Below are positions 35,101 through 46,663 of a stretch of DNA of 64,000 nt, one piece after another. The stretch is from Symbiotaphrina buchneri (lineage: Eukaryota > Ascomycota > Symbiotaphrinales > Symbiotaphrinaceae). The DNA is taken from contig BCIG01000025.1 in NCBI GenBank assembly GCA_001599915.1, positions 124,001 through 188,000 of the forward strand, given 5' to 3'. The notes beneath the pieces were generated by a model. That model saw only the letters and a list, made by a program, of their open reading frames with translations, was not told the DNA's origin and ran no database searches. Position 1 is the first letter of the stretch, and every line of letters starts with the position of its first letter. A program made the position numbers and the translations under genes.

Positions 35101-37290
35101 AGTCTCGTTGCAGCGTTGCAACTGCAAGCCTTTATCATACAGCCTAGCCAACTCGGAGTCTTCGTTGCTGCTTCCGGATATCATGGCGAAGCGCAAGGCA
35201 AGCAGTAAGGAGAAAGGCGAATTGCCTCGTTCATCTCGTGTAAGCCTACACTTTGAAGCAGAACCTTCAACGCGACTGACGTATCATCAGAAGCTTGACG
35301 GCGAGAGCGCACGTAGGATCCGCAAGTTACTACGTCGACAAAAACGTGACAAGGTCTTGGTAGGTTGCAGTCCCTTTTCCCATAGGCGATGGCTTATTCG
35401 ATCTTGTCAAGGATGGCCAAAGGCAAGCTAGGCTGGCGAATGCTCAAGCGCAAGATTCCCAGCATCAGACTCTCGGAGCTGAAGCTCGTGCGGTTCAGGC
35501 GGTTCAAGCTCAGCTTTCCGTAGCAACGAATCCCATACCCGTGGACAGACTGCCCGCCAACAACCCGACGAGCAGGAACCGATTGAACCTACGGACCTAG
35601 TTCCAGACCCCATAAAAAGACGTCTAAAGACAGCATAAGAAACTGGGTTTTTTGATGACATAGAGATGGCACATTTCGATGATTTTTCGCGGAGCCTTGC
35701 GTCTGCAATTTTCTTCAGACGTCATAACATTGAGGATGCCATCCGCGACGAAATCATCTCGGCTCGCTTTGCCACGAAAACGCCAATATTTCAGCTCCAT
35801 CGTAAGAAGTGCCTCACGTGGCAGAGTGATTGACAGAATAAGATCCTTACCTAGGTGCTTAATTCCTTGCACAAGCTCATCAGGACTTTTCAGGGCCATG
35901 AGGCTTGGGAACACAGCGACGAGATGGACCGGTTCGCTGTATATACAGCCATTTAAATCAACTGCCGCAATGAGACGGAAGATATTGTACAGATTGGCAA
36001 TTGCGGCTGTCTTGTCTTCTTCTAAATGGGGTCTACCTTGTTCAATTTGGCCAGTTTTACATACTCCCCAGGTCTGTACGATGTTCTGCGTCCGTCCCTG
36101 GCACCATCTGTCCAATGATTGGAGGATCTCCCCCCGAAGGACATGTAGGGTTCTACGTCCATATCCTTCAAAAAGTTCAGGGGCCCGCATATATTTACAT
36201 CGAATCAGAAAGGCAACCGTGATGATCCCGAGAACTACACTCAGAGAGCTCTTGTCTTTGACGTCTCCTCTCCTCGTCGTGTCAACAACATTCAGTTCTC
36301 TATTCCTCACCGTCTGCTCGTTATGGGCATTCGTCGTGGAGTCTTCTCCAATATCCGCTCTATTGAAGAGTGTTTCAAGGATGGCCCACGCCGAATCTCG
36401 ATAAGGGGGTCATACCTGGAACAGTCTGTGTTACTAGCTTCAGCGCCGCGGGGCCTAGGACTTTTTGACCCTCTACGTCCCATGGGAGCTCTGGCTCTGA
36501 TCGAATACCTCAAGAGACGTTCGAGATTGATCGGGTACTCGGAAAACCTAACTTTCTATTGCTGGAGGAACAGGACTTTAACCGAATTCGCAAACTCTGT
36601 CGGCTTCGAAAAGGCAAAGCTCCTCGCTGGCCATACTGACGCGAGTGATGTACTGAAGAGGTACTACTATGAGGCGTTTCAAGACCTTGACCTTGCTGCG
36701 ATGGCCCTAGGAGAGCAAAACCGGTCTACGGAGGAACGTGGCATTTTCACCTTGGCAACTAGCCAGGTCAATACTGCCTGGGCTCATGGTCGCTTCCTTG
36801 ACGCAGCGACTGAGTAACTGATCCGCTCTGATCCTAATTTTCCAAAGGCTGGCACGGTCAAGGAACAACAGCTGTATCGTCGCCGCACCAAGGCATACGC
36901 TCAGCAACTTCTCCTTGACGATCAGCGTAAAGCGGGTCAGAAAGGAGCCGTCCTTCAGGAAAAGAAACGGCCAAACCGGGGGAACTGCGGTATCTGTTCG
37001 AGCTCTGGTCGACTTGGGACGGACAGGACGAAAAGACCCTCAACAAGATACTGCAGCATGGCTCTAGTGCTGCCTAAAAGAGAGTGACCTGCCATTGTGG
37101 CAGAAAGGGCGGGTATGCGGTCGCTGTTGGGACGTGAAATCAGTTGGGCACTTCTACGAGCCTATCTAGGAAGGGCTCGCGGAAAAGGCGTTCACGACGA
37201 GTCTTGATGCTCCAGAGACGACGGACGAGTTCCGCATCATCGACTTTCTGACTGGCAAGGGTTTGACCAGGGATGGCGATGCACATACAC
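35101..37290 (+). mobile_element. tyrosine-recombinase element, copy B (DUF3435/Crypton-like), decayed
   Basis: Starts with a basic N-terminus (MAKRKASSKEKGELPRSSR at 35184) and repeats the copy A block ETGFFDDIEMAHFDDFSRS and RDEIISARFATKTPIFQLHR. It loses the middle, and preserves the C-terminal half absent from copy A: IQFSIPHRLLVMGIRRGVFS, then at 36323-36817 ENLTFYCWRNRTLTEFANSV and KLLAGHTDASDVLKRYYYEA. The Arg, His (AGH) and a Tyr in YYYEAF fit the R-H-Y tyrosine recombinase active site. A tail rich in Arg/Gln (QQLYRRRTKAYAQQLL) follows to about 37290. Copies A and B together cover one complete family member. No terminal repeats or target-site duplication could be recognised. Several breaks; inactive. 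Confidence 0.7.
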
Positions 37291-37447: not shown

Positions 37448-39723
37448 TTACAGCCCCGCCTCCCTAACCGCCTCCTCAAACCTCCTCGCGACCTCCAAGA
37501 CCTCCGCATCCGTCCTCGTGCCACCGATCAACGTGACCCCAAACGGCATCTTCTTCGCGCCCTCGGCAGCGTACGTGCCAGCGGGCACCGCAACGCCCAT
37601 CAGGTCGAGCACATTGGCGAAGTGCGTAAAGGTGCCGAGGAACGAGTTGTTGCGGATGGGGTCCGCGAGCATCTCGGCGACGGTGAAGTGCGTCGGCGCG
37701 GTCGGGACGACGAGTAAGGTTATCCCTGACGGATGCCGCGTGAAGATCTGTTCCGCTTGTCGCGTGTAGCTAAGGATGGGGTTAGCGACGTGGATGGATT
37801 GTAGGGTAAAGGAGGATGCGGAGAGTGGCTTACAGTGCCCTGGCTTGTAGATCCCGGAAAGCTTCCACCGCAGTGCTGTTCCTGCTAGAGACCTGCTCGA
37901 AGATCTCGCGCGTCGTCGGGTGCAGATGCTCCCGATTCTTCTCGAGCCAGCCGTCCGGCAGCCCAGCGATGCGCTCCGAGACAAAAGTGCCATCGTACAG
38001 CAGATTGCCGGCCTTCTCGAAGGGCGACCAGTCCACAGGCGTAAGATGCCCGCCAATTTTCTCCAAGATCGACACGGCTTGTCCGAACATCTTTTGGTAG
38101 GCCGGAGTGCACAATGCAATCTCGCTTCCGGAGGTGGGACTCCAAAGTTAAACGCTGTGGCTTGTGGCCCGAGAGAGTGTACGGGCCGCAGGATGGGCGG
38201 GGTGGATTTCGAATACCGATCTTCTGCATCGTAGCCTTCGCATACATCCCACACGGTACGTGCGTCTTCGATGTTGGCCGTGGAGAAGGAGGCACAGTCC
38301 AGAGATAGACAGGCCGGGGTGATACCGGTGAAAGAGACGGTCCCGCGTGTGGGCTTAAAGCCTACCACGCCGTTGAAAGCGGCTGGTACACGACCTGAGC
38401 CTGCAGTGTCGGTTGTGAGCGAGAAGCTGACCAGCTTGGCGCCTACGCTGACGCAGGACCCGCTCGACGAGCCGCCGGAGATGTGGTCCGCGCTATACAC
38501 GGACCTAGGAATGCCATAGGGAGATCGGGTGCCATTAAGGCCGGTAGCCAACTGGTCGAGATTGGTCTTGCCGAGGAGAATGGCACCGGCTTCGATGCAT
38601 TTGGTGTAGATGGTGGCAGACTTTCTTGGAGTGAATGCAAGAGGAGGACATGCTGTTGTTGTGGGTATACCTGCAATATCGATGCTGTCTTTGACGCTGA
38701 ATGGAATGCCGAAGAGAGGCGGAAGTTTGTTTTTATCGGGATACTTCTGCTCCAGTTCCTTTGCCGCTTGTAGAACGGTCTCAAGAGAACACAAATGTAT
38801 CCACACTGCGGGATCGACCTTTTGATACTCTTTGGCTCTCTGGTAGAGCGTGTCCATTACTGTAACCGGGGAGAGGCCCTGCTTATACGCGGCCTGAAGA
38901 GCTGATATCGAGATGTCACCATTCCACGACACCTTTGTCCCGTTCATTATGGGTGAAGTGTAAGGCTTAAGAGCATCAACCAGTGGCTGCAAATGACCGA
39001 CGAAGCCAAATAGGCCTTGTGACCACGGCAGCAGATCCAATGTTGATTGTTTAAGCCATTCGGCGTATCCAGCTGTAGCTTCTGCAATGCCGCCTGCTCA
39101 ATAATCAGCCTAGAATTCTACTGCCTCGTGTGTCCTGACTTACAGCAATCAAATCCCCGGTCATTGGCCTCCCGAATGGTCATCTGGAAGCAGCACTCCG
39201 TCGTTACACCAGCCACGATCAAATGCGTCACGGCCATTGCCTGCAGCTTCTCCATCAATCTTGTGTTCCAGAACGAGCCTTTGCCGGGCTTATCTATCAC
39301 CAACTCTCCTGGTATCGGGTACAGTTCGTCGATTATATCATGTCCATACTCTCCTCTTGTGAGTAGTCGACCCATCGGTCCCTTCTCGCCAATGACCATC
39401 TTGTGCATCTTGTTGCCCGGCATTGCCTTCTGCCGTATCAATTTCGACGATGGGCAATCCGATAGGTCGGGCAGATGGCCTTCCCGTGTGTGAATGACCT
39501 TCAAGCCCGCGCCCCTGAAAGCCTCCAACAGCTGTTTGGTGGGCTTAATGCACTCTTGCACATATGTCAGATCTCCGCCCTGGATCTGCCCGAAACCTCC
39601 TTCCAGCAAGAAATCCCTCTGCATGTCGATTATGATCAGCGCCGTGTGTCGTGGAGGGAATGAGAAGGCGTATGGCTTTGCGTCGAACGACAGCCATGCC
39701 GGCATAGCTTTTGGTGGAGACAT
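37448..39723 (-). CDS. isochorismatase-fold hydrolase fused to allophanate hydrolase (putative bifunctional biuret-degrading enzyme); one-base frame offset
   Basis: Exons (minus) 39723-39144, 39093-37834 and 37769-37448; introns of 50 and 64 nt. Residues 1-210 are a cysteine hydrolase of the isochorismatase/biuret-hydrolase type: Asp33 in IIIDMQRDF, Lys145/148 in IDKPGKGSFW, Cys177/178 in GVTTECC. Splicing at 39143/39094 restores its missing C-terminus (AEATAGYAEWL, then WSQGLFGFVGHLQPLVDAL) and reads on in frame into an amidase whose frame has no ATG of its own, only TTG at that place. The amidase half matches allophanate hydrolase (AtzF, Dur1): Lys328 in SVKDSID, cis-Ser in ISGGSSSGS, nucleophile near Ser426 in DTAGSGRVPAA, and GKTNLDQLATGLNGTRSPYG. 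The sum is 2162 nt, one base short of 721 codons; the frame slips near 38125 and family-like sequence continues beyond (CTPAYQKMFGQ, WLEKNREHLHP). Predicted: biuret to allophanate to ammonia and CO2. Confidence 0.82.
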
Positions 39724-41661: not shown

Positions 41662-44044
41662 ATGATGACTGCCGCCACCGCAGCAACTCTGGAGCCTACC
41701 AATACCAGAAGCCGAAAAGACCGGCCGTGTGACACGTGCCGACGAAGGAAAAGTAAATGTGTCATTCCTGAAGGAGCTGAACGCTGTGTCCTCTGCGATT
41801 TTCATAAGCAGGATTGCACATTTGAGCAAAGTCCCCAACCCAGAAAGAGAGGAACTGACTCAAAGGATGAGAGACCTGCAAAGAGGAGGTAATCACTCAC
41901 CCACCCTTTTATTCTGCGCTCTTAGATGTGATATCGAGCTAATCTGCTTGATAGAGCTTCAGATGCAGAGTCAAATGGCTCGCGGACTCATCCTAACAGC
42001 ATCTCCTCAGGACCTGCCGTGCGATCAGAAATCATCGAGGACTATGCAAACCTCAAAGGCCCATCACTGCTCAAAGAAACCTTGGGCCTTCAGAATCATC
42101 GGCATAGCAAGTACATCGGTGTCACTAGTTATCATGAGCCATATCTCATGAATTCGATTCCTTTTGATAACAAGGATGAGTATGCTTTGGCCACTGGAAC
42201 ATTACGCAAAGTCAGCGAAAGAGACACCTTTCTCCAGCTATCGGACCAGCAGGCTCGATCTGACGAGCTGAGCGATCTCGACGCCATTGAAAATGTCGTC
42301 GCCCCTCACGGTCAGGCACTTATTAATATCTATTTTCGCATTGTACATCCGAATTTCCCCATTTTACACAAGGTCTATCTAGAGAAGTATCGAAGGACAC
42401 ATCGAGAATTCACTCCTCCATTACTGGCAGCCGTCTATATCCTGGCTTTGAATTGGTGGTCGTATAGCGCAGATCTATCAACCTTACCAAAACCAAACGT
42501 CAAAGAGCTGGAGAAATTGGCATTACGAACTATGAATGATGTGGTCCACAGGCCAAAGTTGTCGACCGTACAGGCAGGTCTTTTGCTCCTCCAAAGACCA
42601 GGTGGCGACTCCTGGGCAATGACGGCACAGTTGGTGGCAATTGGTCAAGATCTGGGTCTGCACGCCGATTGCACATATTGGAAAATCCCAGAGTGGGAGA
42701 AAGGACTAAGAAAACGTCTGGGATGGGCGCTGTTCATGCAGGACAAATGGGGTTCAATGATATACGGAAGACCATCTTTGATTTCGCGATGTAACTGGAC
42801 CGTCGAAGATGTCCAGAAGGATGATTTCCCTGAAAATGCTGCGGATGAGGACGACGAGGAAGGAAGCTCGGAAGTTGAAAAGGGCCGGGTGTTGTTCACA
42901 GAGATGATTTCTTTGACTCAAATTCTGGCCGAGATCTTGGAGGCATTTTTCAGTCTGAAATCACTACAAAAGTTGGAAGAAGAAAGCACGAATGCGACAC
43001 TTATGATTTTAGAGAGGGCGAAACCGCTGCAGACGCGCCTGAAGCAATGGTACGCCAACCTGCCCGAGTGTGTAAAGATGGATTCCACCAAAGTCAGAAA
43101 ACTATCCTCGACAGGTAATGACGTTCTTCCACTGCTCCTTTGCCACCTCTAACCTCTCTAAAGGCTACTTGCACCTGGCATATCTTGCCACCGAAATCAC
43201 ACTTCACCGGTGCATCGTGCGGTCAATTGACAGCCACACAGATCCGCACCTCGTACACATCTGCCGCTCAGCAGCCCGCTCGCGGCTCATGGCCGCCATG
43301 GACTTCGTCAACAGCCTGAAGCCCGAGCATCTCCAATCCTTCTGGTACTTCGCGTCCAAGATCAACTTCGCCGTCGTGGGCATGTTCGCAAACCTGCTAT
43401 GGGCGACATCACGAGAGCCCGAAGAGGCCGAATACTACCGCAGCCGGCTGGGCGAGTACCGGTGGACGCTGCGCGTCAGCAGCAAGGGCGCCGAGTTCAT
43501 GGAGTTCGCCGTCGGCGTGCTGGACGAGGCGGCGGGCGTCTTCCAGAAGCGGATCGGGCAGGGCCACTCCCAACCCGCCGCCCACGGACACGGACGCAGG
43601 AACTCCGTCCCGGTGTCGTTCCACGCGCAGCAGCCTCAGCAGCAGAGCAGCATGCAGTGGCCGAATAACCAGGGGCTGCCCCCGGCGGTGGGGGTGGACG
43701 CGTCGCGGCCCAGCAGCACGAGCATCTCGCCCGAGCTGGCGCACAGCGCGCTCCACGGCGGCCAGTTCTGGCTGGACACGCCGCCGGGCATGACGCCGGG
43801 TATGCAGCACTATTCCGCTTCTGCGCAACAGCAGCAGCAGGGGCAGCAGCAGGCTGACGCGACGTCGTTCACGGGCTCGGCTGAGTATGAGGCGTATATG
43901 GCGCCCGGCGGACCGTATGCTGAGCAGACGCCTGATGGGGCAAATGGGGGGTACCATGCTGTTGCGGTGGATGAACGGTGGGGCACGGCGGGTGGGACGG
44001 GCAGGTCGATCTTTGAGGAGCAAGATGAGTTCTTGGGGATGTGA
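41662..44044 (+). CDS. Zn2Cys6 transcription factor, Dal81/TamA-like
   Basis: 755-aa nuclear regulator. Exons 41662-41888, 41955-43114 and 43164-44044; introns of 66 and 49 nt (the second begins GTAATG). Start at 41662 or the adjacent ATG at 41665. The binuclear cluster is CX2CX6CX8CX2CX6C at Cys23-Cys52 (CDTCRRRKSKCV ... CVLCDFHKQDC), followed by the QSPQPRKR arm. A fungal_trans domain begins at ALINIYFRIVHPNFPILHKV, and PPLLAAVYILALNWWSYS, KLSTVQAGLLLLQRPGGDSW and RLGWALFMQDKWGSMIYGRP match my memory of yeast Dal81/Uga35 and Aspergillus TamA. The C-terminus is Gln/Gly-rich. Dal81 supports induction of allantoin, urea and GABA genes; allophanate is the yeast inducer. The neighbouring allophanate hydrolase makes this context suggestive. 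Orthology itself needs a tree. Confidence 0.85.
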
Positions 44045-44585: not shown

Positions 44586-46663
44586 TCAAGTGACCACCAT
44601 CCGACCAGCTTTTAGCCTCTCATTCAACACGAGGCGTTCCTCATCGCTCCGATCCGAGTACCCATGGGTTCTCATCAGGTGCGCTCGGAGCTCCTTTCGC
44701 TGGCGGTACAGTTTCAGATGACACCTTGTCCCGTCCGGCGGCTCCTCCATGCACCGGTACTGGATGGCCTGGCAGAACCTCTCCCACCGCCTGGTCATGG
44801 ATCGTTTGCGCCGCTGCTCTACCAGCCTTGCCGCCGTCCTGCTCAGCATCTCCTGCGTTCCCTTCTCGGAGATGTATTGCTCCGTGAGCTCCCGAATATG
44901 CTTTAGTGTCTTGTTCTCTCCCGTCCGTCGACTGATCTTCCATTGATCGAGAGGTACATCACATAGACGCAGAGCTCCAGGCACATTGAATCGGGCGTAA
45001 GGGAGGTGTTTGTCTTGTGTGATAGTCTCCATTACTGCGTGGGTCTGCTCCGAATCTGATGCAAGGTCTTTAGCCGCACCAATGTACCGGATATACCTAT
45101 TGATCCCGGGTCGTCCGAAGCGCTCAATGCTGCGCCTGCCTGTGCCGATACTTACAATACCGGCAATCGCTTGCTCCGCACCCCCATTCATCTGCTTTAC
45201 TTCTTCATAAACCTCCCAGGTTGGATTGTTCATGCCATTACCGAAACCTCCGTCGAGAAATTCATCCTTCTCGATTTTCATAGTCTCGAAGTAAGTGGGT
45301 GCCGCGGATGTAGCACGGGCGACCTGCCATATGGGCACATTGGACGGTGGGCCGGGGTTTCGTTCGTAGATATTTGTCTTTAGGCTGCGGATATGCCGGT
45401 ATGAGCGGAACAGATGCGGACCATCATCAAACCCGCAACAAGATTTGCGCCACGCCAGTGCGATGCTATACTGGGTCAGTTGGTTAAGAGGATCACTAGT
45501 GACGAGGTAACTCACGTCCGACACATCTCCTCGCTTGACGGAAAGTAGGTATCACGGAGTTCTTCGGGCCGCTCTTTTAATTGTTCATCCAGGATATGCT
45601 CAACGGCTTGCCGAAGACATTTAGGGTTGTATTTATCTCTTGGCCACCAGATAGGAGGAGGAGAAAGCATGTGGACTTTCCGAGGGTGCCCAAAGACAAT
45701 TTGGCCGAGCTTGCTCCATTGTGTTATGCAGTCGTCAACACACATTCGAAGACGTCCGAGCATGATGGCGATCAACCTGCCATCGTTTAGAGGAGGGAAC
45801 AGGTGCGCTATATCTGAGCATGATGCTTACCCTCCCGTACTTGTCCCGCCAATATAATCGAAATAATGACAGGGAAGATATTGCTTGAGAGACTCGTCTG
45901 GGGTCTGAGTGTGCTCATCGTTCGTCGTCCCATCCTCAGCCCGAAGAGTTGACAAAGGATGGCTGCTCCAATGAACAGGCTCCAAGTCGTGCTGTTCTTC
46001 TAGAGCTTTGATCTTCTCCATAAGAGCGCGCAATATGAGGAGACTGGAGTAGCCTCGAATTCCACCTCCATCTGACACCCATATGAGTAACTATTCTTTA
46101 GTATCACTGAATGGCTTACCGAATGTCAAGATGTTCTTGCCCGTCCAAGGGTCTTCCGGGTCGTTTCTCGAAGACGCGTGAGTACCATCGGTCATCCATG
46201 TCTCTTTCCGACTGGGTAATTTGAAAGACCCAGCGGGAATTGGATTGTGTGGGGTCTCAATGGGAGTACAGTAGATACTTTGTCCGGACGATGCATGCGT
46301 CGAGCTGGAGAACGTCGTGCTCTGCCTCTTTGGAGCCCATGTCTTGGTCTCAGGCCCGAATGAGATCGTCCGCTGTAAAGGAGAAGGGTCTGCTGTGACG
46401 GCACTAGACTGCATGCCATCATTGCCCAATGAGCTAGGGGTTATGGGCACATTCTTGGGACTGTCCCGGATTGCAAAGTCGGCAGCATCTGTCAATCTCT
46501 CGTTGGTGGCATCGGCCACTGGTTCGGGTGACGTGGTGCGCTCCAGCGCGATTGGACTTTCAGCAGTTGGGGAATCTGCTGAGCCTTGACTCGGTATCGT
46601 GCTCAGGGCCGGGGGAGACCATATCGAACGGGCCATACTGCGGCTGCCTGCCATGAAATTCAA
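44586..46663 (-). CDS. patatin-like phospholipase with C2H2-like tail
   Basis: 641-aa serine acyl-hydrolase. Exons (minus) 46663-46120, 46071-45831, 45776-45516 and 45465-44586; introns of 48, 54 and 50 nt. Residues 1-175 are Ser/Thr/Pro-rich, with a basic start. The patatin domain begins at KNILTFDGGGIRGYSSLLIL (oxyanion loop 182-188), with nucleophile elbow GGTSTGG (Ser259) and catalytic Asp420 in FLDGGFGNG, so the Ser-Asp dyad is complete. Conserved CRTIALAWR and WQVARATSAAPTYF blocks are present. The start is 46663 or 46654. The last 70 residues contain a Cys/His arrangement (YRCMEEPPDGTRCHLKLYRQ then LRAHLMRTHG) resembling one C2H2 finger, seen in some fungal patatins linked to non-self or immune-like proteins. 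No ankyrin, TPR or NB-ARC module follows. Substrate likely phospholipid. Confidence 0.9.

Follow-up and report, generated by a model that had tools for sequence, protein, structure and literature searches.

A predicted fusion of an isochorismatase-fold hydrolase and an allophanate hydrolase amidase in the fungus Symbiotaphrina buchneri

Bacteria make biuret hydrolase and allophanate hydrolase as separate enzymes, which turn a by-product of triazine degradation into ammonia. In fungi, DUR1,2 joins allophanate hydrolase to an allophanate-making enzyme, urea carboxylase. Here, we describe a gene of Symbiotaphrina buchneri in which a predicted isochorismatase-fold cysteine hydrolase is followed by an intron and by the amidase domain of an allophanate hydrolase. 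The gene lies on the minus strand of contig C25 (BCIG01000025.1) of assembly GCA_001599915.1 (23.4 Mb, 82 contigs; the assembly searched throughout), at positions 37448-39723 of a 64-kb window, the window being the whole analysed stretch of 64,000 nucleotides (contig positions 124,001 to 188,000), to which all coordinates below refer unless a contig is named. Judged from the sequence, this hydrolase-intron-amidase domain architecture is real, and the spliced polypeptide that it predicts, an isochorismatase-fold hydrolase followed by an allophanate hydrolase, is well supported.

The closest characterized relatives of the N-terminal domain are TrtA of Herbaspirillum (6XIX) and BiuH of Rhizobium (6AZO), with which it shares the fold, the catalytic triad and the substrate-contacting Lys and Glu. 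Both are, however, free-standing bacterial enzymes, whereas the fungal domain is fused, its substrate-binding Gln seems displaced (S218/Q219), and N41 and I205 are replaced by Gly and Leu, respectively. The amidase domain resembles those of AtzF from Pseudomonas ADP (4CP8) and of 4GYR, which we take to be a Granulibacter protein, and is collinear with them over three fragments, but, unlike them, the fungal protein has no C-terminal AH_C domain and, as assembled here, contains one frameshift. DUR1,2 is likewise a fungal fusion of allophanate hydrolase to an enzyme that makes allophanate, but its partner is urea carboxylase on the C-terminal side, whereas here it is an isochorismatase-fold enzyme on the N-terminal side, and the amidase of DUR1,2 is less similar. 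Several Dothideomycetes are described as having a free 'amidase', urease and often urea carboxylase, and no DUR1,2 (Strope et al., 2011; PMC3073912); this stand-alone amidase resembles the present one in being of the non-DUR1,2 allophanate hydrolase type and in belonging to the same gene set, and neither isochorismatase nor biuret occurs in the main text of that article. A biuret hydrolase joined to an allophanate hydrolase in one gene is described for BA2H, but this is a man-made construct for plant transformation that relies on a 2A peptide (PMC13155557). We found no report of a natural biuret hydrolase-allophanate hydrolase fusion in the open-licence literature, and regard the components as known and their natural fusion, as predicted here, as new.

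Gene layout and splicing

The gene is read as three exons separated by two introns, with one change of frame within the second exon:

39144..39723, minus strand: exon 1, residues 1-193, isochorismatase-fold cysteine hydrolase with catalytic D33, K145 and C178 (PF00857, 8.9e-29)
39094..39143, minus strand: intron 1, 50 nt (GTAAGT ... CTGAT ... GCAG)
38948..39093, minus strand: exon 2 part 1, isochorismatase C-terminus plus a short linker that shares the frame of the amidase
38130..38947, minus strand: exon 2 part 2, N-terminal part of the allophanate hydrolase amidase domain, starting at an in-frame ATG (38947)
38104..38194, minus strand: stretch containing the -1 frame change, with conserved protein on either side in two different frames
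37834..38147, minus strand: exon 2 part 3, amidase domain in the shifted frame (...SEIALCTPAY...LLYDGTFVSER...; NF006043, 8.2e-15)
37770..37833, minus strand: intron 2, 64 nt (GTAAGC ... GCTAAC ... TTAG)
37448..37769, minus strand: exon 3, C-terminal end of the amidase and stop codon, with no AH_C after it (NF006043, 3.6e-25)

An earlier note, made from the letters of this DNA alone, had proposed the 50-nt intron at 39094-39143, an exon that then supplies the C-terminus of the first enzyme and runs without a stop into the amidase, and a single spliced polypeptide as the product. The sequence supports this proposal: the splice signals are canonical and splicing lengthens the matches to both BiuH and TrtA. 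Specifically, retention of intron 1 would lead to a stop after 201 aa, ahead of the isochorismatase C-terminus, whereas its removal extends the match to the BiuH model from profile positions 8-179 to 8-221, the end of the profile (204.6 to 218.7 bits), and joining exons 1 and 2 raises the TrtA match from 202.8 to 218.9 bits. The isochorismatase fold is completed by the first ~48 codons of exon 2; the rest of this exon encodes the amidase, into which it continues without a stop (Pfam PF01425, 5.7e-63; allophanate hydrolase NF006043, 1.3e-92). A donor/branch-point/acceptor pattern, composed after both introns had been seen, matches the minus strand of the 2.4-kb stretch exactly twice, both times where the gene needs an intron, and the plus strand not at all; in 500 first-order Markov sequences the mean was 0.08 matches and the maximum 2, and across the whole window there are five matches per strand.

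Codon usage gives a second view of the frames. The table was derived from 12 of 13 stretches elsewhere in the genome, oriented by their lack of stops, the remaining one being dropped for an internal stop. It favours the frame of exon 1 in every 90-nt bin except the first. In the first bin of exon 2 (39093-39004), two frames are tied (0.00 versus 0.02), which is a weak point of the fusion reading, so that the frame at this point rests on homology.

Alternatively, the amidase might be made as a separate protein from its own transcript. The earlier note had stated that the amidase frame has no ATG where it would need one, which is mistaken: in-frame ATGs are found in exon 2 at 38947 and 38857, the former located just ahead of the start of the amidase homology. 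The absence of a start codon is therefore no argument for the fusion; the argument is the continuous coding exon. Two separate proteins would also agree with the existence of the same order in a haloarchaeon as two genes with a single stop codon between them, and with the indecision of codon usage over the first 90 nt of exon 2. By contrast, retention of intron 1 truncates the first enzyme, no stop precedes the amidase in the exon that completes this enzyme, and a promoter for the amidase would need to sit in exon 1, in intron 1 or within the first 146 nt of exon 2. Since the exon carrying the end of the first enzyme continues directly into the amidase, we disfavour separate transcripts and consider this alternative improbable; the gene would be expressed as one protein.

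The amidase domain and its frame change

The three amidase fragments are collinear with the allophanate hydrolase model NF006043, covering positions 6-258, 266-353 and 362-449 of 600 (1.3e-92, 8.2e-15 and 3.6e-25, respectively); searched singly, none reaches the cut-off of 487 bits set for the whole protein. The translation of exon 2 part 2 contains the Lys and the two Ser residues of the Ser-cisSer-Lys amidase signature. Among solved structures, the amidase of exon 2 matches 4cp8 (5.5e-73) and 4gyr (3.2e-69) best, and scores higher against these two free-standing allophanate hydrolases (249 and 237 bits) than against the urea amidolyase 5i8i (188 bits). The suggestion in the earlier note that a full allophanate hydrolase follows the first enzyme is not confirmed: two features of allophanate hydrolases as modelled by TIGR02713/NF006043 are lacking, namely the AH_C domain and a single intact reading frame, and intron 2 (37833-37770) had been overlooked. 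AH_C (PF21986) has no match anywhere in the assembly, nor in the two downstream minus-strand frames that were scanned. Free-standing homologues too short to accommodate AH_C do exist: that of Natronorubrum is 459 aa long, and those in five actinobacterial loci (L032, L041, L051, L054 and L090) measure 459-493 aa from stop to stop. Furthermore, AtzF truncated to remove its C-terminal domain is described as still active, in an assay with 50 mM biuret (PMC3944691).

The 549-aa open frame is not one protein and consists in part of noise. From ~38130, the allophanate hydrolase homology moves to another frame, at 38147-37834 (NF006043, 8.2e-15; 4cp8, 1.1e-9), and past intron 2 it returns to the original frame as far as the stop at 37448 (NF006043, 3.6e-25; 4cp8, 6.1e-17). 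Codon usage from exon 2 onward follows the same course, with frame 0 best at 39003-38194, no decision at 38193-38104, frame 2 best at 38103-37834 and frame 0 again to 37474. Hence, homology and codon usage alike place the frame change between 38194 and 38104.

A third intron could, in principle, reconcile the two amidase frames, given that excision between any of 250 GT/GC-AG pairs, 15-259 nt in length, would formally bring them into register. Of these we inspected 25 GT pairs no longer than 160 nt and 30 pairs with better donors, and found none around the break in which a good donor occurs together with a branch point and a YAG acceptor; those spanning the break would cut conserved protein, for instance, the FNFGVP segment shared with 4cp8. 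The two accepted introns, by contrast, have clear signals. No inspected candidate pairs good signals with the sparing of conserved protein, so that a hidden third intron was rejected as an explanation and appears very unlikely indeed. Because homology and codon usage switch frame with no convincing intron among the inspected pairs, we call a -1 frameshift near 38130, which, from the sequence, would be an error of the assembly or else a null allele of recent origin. That the amidase half, as the sequence stands, is frameshifted once is a difficulty for a bifunctional enzyme.

If the frameshift is genuine, this strain carries a pseudogene or null allele with a dead amidase half, in which the first activity alone would remain, leaving allophanate to decay to urea, on which the urease would act. 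The clarity of the frame change in both homology and codon usage and the lack of a plausible intron that removes it among the pairs inspected speak for this possibility, as does a weak, below-cut-off match to the mobile-element-type domain DUF3435 just downstream of the gene (36149-36814, plus strand; E 0.0065), possibly representing mobile-element remains. Against it, there is a single lesion in ~2.2 kb of coding sequence, the introns, catalytic motifs and remaining frames are intact, an assembly indel explains the data equally well, and no second copy was found in the assembly for comparison. A null allele is, accordingly, a serious possibility, although not the one we favour.

The first domain and its place in the biuret/triuret clan

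Among solved structures, the two best matches of exon 1 alone are TrtA (6xix, 5e-59) and BiuH (6azo, 9.9e-50), and the spliced first domain ranks them in the same order (7.6e-64 and 3.2e-53). We compared it with 81 TrtA-type and 42 BiuH-type sequences in a residue alignment built from 141 matches and 3 references, from which 14 duplicates were removed and in which 4 rows remained ungrouped. The catalytic triad D33/K145/C178 and the substrate-contacting K148, E81 and F38 are common to almost all members of both groups; the catalytic Asp-Lys-Cys and second Lys of BiuH (D33, K145, C178 and K148) are thus all present in the fungal protein. On this evidence, the first domain belongs to the biuret/triuret clan, within which its sequence does not tell the substrate.

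Six positions discriminate between the two enzymes (TrtA numbering; PMC7948467), being F35, N41, A134, E160, Y187 and I205 in TrtA and, with the help of the alignment, Y35, Y41, S134, D160, T187 and V205 in BiuH. The fungal domain has F, G, S, E, Y and L, that is, three TrtA-type residues (F35, E160 and Y187) and a single BiuH-type one. The earlier note had proposed that the fusion channels biuret nitrogen to ammonia, and a number of results weigh against this role. The first domain has a higher identity to TrtA (51%) than to BiuH (46%), and TrtA is described as nearly inactive on biuret (PMC7948467). Only one of six discriminating residues is of the BiuH type, and N41 of TrtA has become Gly. 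The Gln that meets the far end of the substrate, Gln202, which is conserved in 80 of the 81 TrtA-type and 41 of the 42 BiuH-type sequences, reads as S218, with Q219 next to it, although this displacement is suggestive only, because both glutamines would also align if the register moved by one residue and a gap compensated for it. The score of 218.7 bits against the BiuH profile NF050097 lies far below the curated cut-off of 370, a strict one, given that a haloarchaeal gene with five of the six BiuH-type residues reaches just 272.8 bits. Finally, because the AtzF amidase was assayed on biuret, an allophanate hydrolase might hydrolyse some biuret without any help from a first domain. The proposed role is nevertheless plausible and is supported by the cyanuric acid hydrolase that this genome also encodes.

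The same residues raise the possibility that the first domain acts on triuret instead, or on triuret and biuret alike, in which case the fusion would link triuret or a different acylurea to allophanate hydrolase. Besides the higher identity to TrtA and the TrtA-type F35, E160 and Y187, this would be in line with a 117-row tree, in which the fungal domain, borne on a very long branch, falls within the TrtA side, with support of 99/89 for a group of 39 TrtA-type rows and the fungus, although the bootstrap has not settled, and with the occurrence of TrtA-type genes without an over-cut-off BiuH in 8 of 12 picked genomes, in 7 of which an amidase lies in the fetched DNA (see below). However, the fungal branch has a length of 2.9, and the approximately unbiased (AU) test on a 61-row tree rejects neither a clade that joins it to BiuH (p = 0.159) nor its exclusion from the TrtA group (p = 0.617); N41 and Q202, each present in 80 of the 81 members of the TrtA group, are both changed in the fungal domain; and no other biuret hydrolase was found in the assembly. 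Moreover, hydrolysis of triuret alone is described as leading to carboxybiuret and on to biuret, not to allophanate (PMC7948467). We therefore consider a triuret-specific or generalist first domain unlikely, though worth keeping in mind, and favour biuret as the probable substrate.

The clan includes further variants. A divergent TrtA-type paralogue (L128, at ~1528) has Ser at 202 and Leu at 205, as does the fungal domain. In three Bacillota TrtA-type sequences (L058, L074 and L099), Glu160 is replaced by His and Tyr187 by Phe. A separate subgroup (L125, at ~1498, and L169:2265-2978) is characterized by W35, E41, V187, F202 and R205 (TrtA numbering); the L169 member is followed by another isochorismatase and an allophanate hydrolase, and the substrate of this subgroup is probably different.

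Relatives, genomic context and proposed role

Of the 481 loci confirmed in a scan of bacterial and archaeal genomes, the 80 best were kept. In all 80, TrtA is a closer relative of the best match than BiuH is, and 39 also contain a BiuH-type gene. An allophanate-type amidase is present beside the hydrolase in the fetched DNA of 19 of the 80 loci, each time in a different reading frame, and no fused homologue was found among these 19. Of 296 genomes of the phylum of Millisia, 71 have a match, and no listed match spans both domains. In a search of 427 plasmid records, 40 of which are listed, 28 contain a single site that covers 80% or more of the two-domain query, and a single-piece match over both domains is found only once among the listed matches, in Natronorubrum daqingense, where it corresponds to two genes split by a stop codon. 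In this plasmid pair (L167, H18), a gene of the biuret hydrolase type is followed, in frame, by the 459-aa allophanate hydrolase without a C-terminal domain, much as in the fungus; yet a TAG stop and an ATG intervene, and the hydrolase is BiuH-type at five of the six discriminating positions and only 37% identical to the fungal domain. None of 86 pattern matches could be confirmed as a viral relative. TrtA homologues are reported to occur in some fungi (PMC7948467). Since neighbouring and in-frame abutting gene pairs exist in prokaryotes, the fungal order would be a small step from prokaryotic arrangements.

Twelve genomes were picked by hand, eight of them because an amidase lay near. Four encode a BiuH over the cut-off (404.7-422.6 bits), the next group of matches, mostly of the TrtA type, scoring 231-283 bits. 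The other eight have a TrtA-type gene without BiuH, where 'without BiuH' means none over the cut-off, because the haloarchaeal BiuH-type gene scores only 272.8 bits; in seven of these eight an amidase is present in the fetched DNA, a pairing that shows occurrence and not frequency, because eight of the twelve had been picked for an amidase. TrtA-type genes near an allophanate-type amidase, with no BiuH over the cut-off, were seen in the bacterial loci L032, L035, L037, L051, L056, L075 and L090.

Partner genes for the fusion are found elsewhere in the S. buchneri genome. A cyanuric acid hydrolase is encoded at C14:694778-695779 (within L154, C14:688000-697999), with a match covering positions 2-358 of the 358-position profile (7.5e-111), and is closer to 6bum (1.1e-69) than to barbiturase (1.5e-48); the family is absent from all 14 prokaryotic control genomes. 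A 2OG-Fe(II) oxygenase and a major facilitator transporter frame lie near this gene. Urease is also present, as are two urea-carboxylase-type genes, one on C27 (L031/L156) with biotin carboxylase, both carboxyltransferase and biotin domains, and one on C9 (L030) with a biotin carboxylase and one carboxyltransferase match. The genome is rich in genes of the amidase family, but of the 55 PF01425 matches reported in the assembly, several of which contain internal stops (introns or broken copies), none lies on C9 or C27. The carboxylases on C9 and C27 and the amidase on C25 are thus parts of different polypeptides, not of a DUR1,2.

Both halves of the gene were found once. No other match above 25 bits to the first domain exists in the assembly, which contains nine other isochorismatase-family stretches, and no second copy of BiuH or TrtA was found in it; for the amidase part, no other match exceeds 87 bits and no other allophanate hydrolase was found. 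Nearby in the window lie a fungal transcription-factor domain (41932-43149) and a patatin-like frame (44589-45551), which have no obvious relation to the fusion. Fungal-specific transcription-factor domains, like the introns, point to a fungal genome.

Taken together, we consider it probable that this single-copy gene encodes a bifunctional hydrolase that would convert biuret, and perhaps triuret, to ammonia downstream of cyanuric acid. The genome's own cyanuric acid hydrolase would open the pathway by producing carboxybiuret, which is described as losing CO2 spontaneously (PMC7948467, PMC3944691), to give biuret. The N-terminal cysteine hydrolase would then remove ammonia from biuret (possibly triuret), its presumed substrate, to yield allophanate, and the C-terminal Ser-cisSer-Lys amidase would split allophanate into ammonia and CO2 ahead of its decay to urea. 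Allophanate made by the two urea-carboxylase-type proteins could likewise be a substrate of the amidase half. Channelling, that is, a transfer of allophanate between the two domains, is a guess.

A more ambitious version of this reading holds that the protein is a eukaryotic nitrogen scavenger that releases all the ammonia of biuret, and perhaps of triuret, in one polypeptide, with a rebuilt substrate loop (the Gln moved by one residue) and a specificity unlike that of either TrtA or BiuH, that it would complete the fungal mineralization of cyanuric acid, and that its bacterial counterparts are the pairs of TrtA-type and allophanate hydrolase genes in BiuH-less genomes. We regard this version as rather doubtful and offer it tentatively.

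Cyanuric acid hydrolases are reportedly known from fungi, from work by Dodge et al. in 2013. In the open-licence literature, we found nothing on the fate in fungi of the biuret that arises from cyanuric acid. A fused biuret-type/allophanate hydrolase in the same genome would be a concrete and testable answer to this question. If true, it would represent a second fungal arrangement, beside DUR1,2, that keeps unstable allophanate from decaying to urea, and it raises the question of what role TrtA-type enzymes paired with allophanate hydrolase may play in bacterial genomes that lack BiuH.

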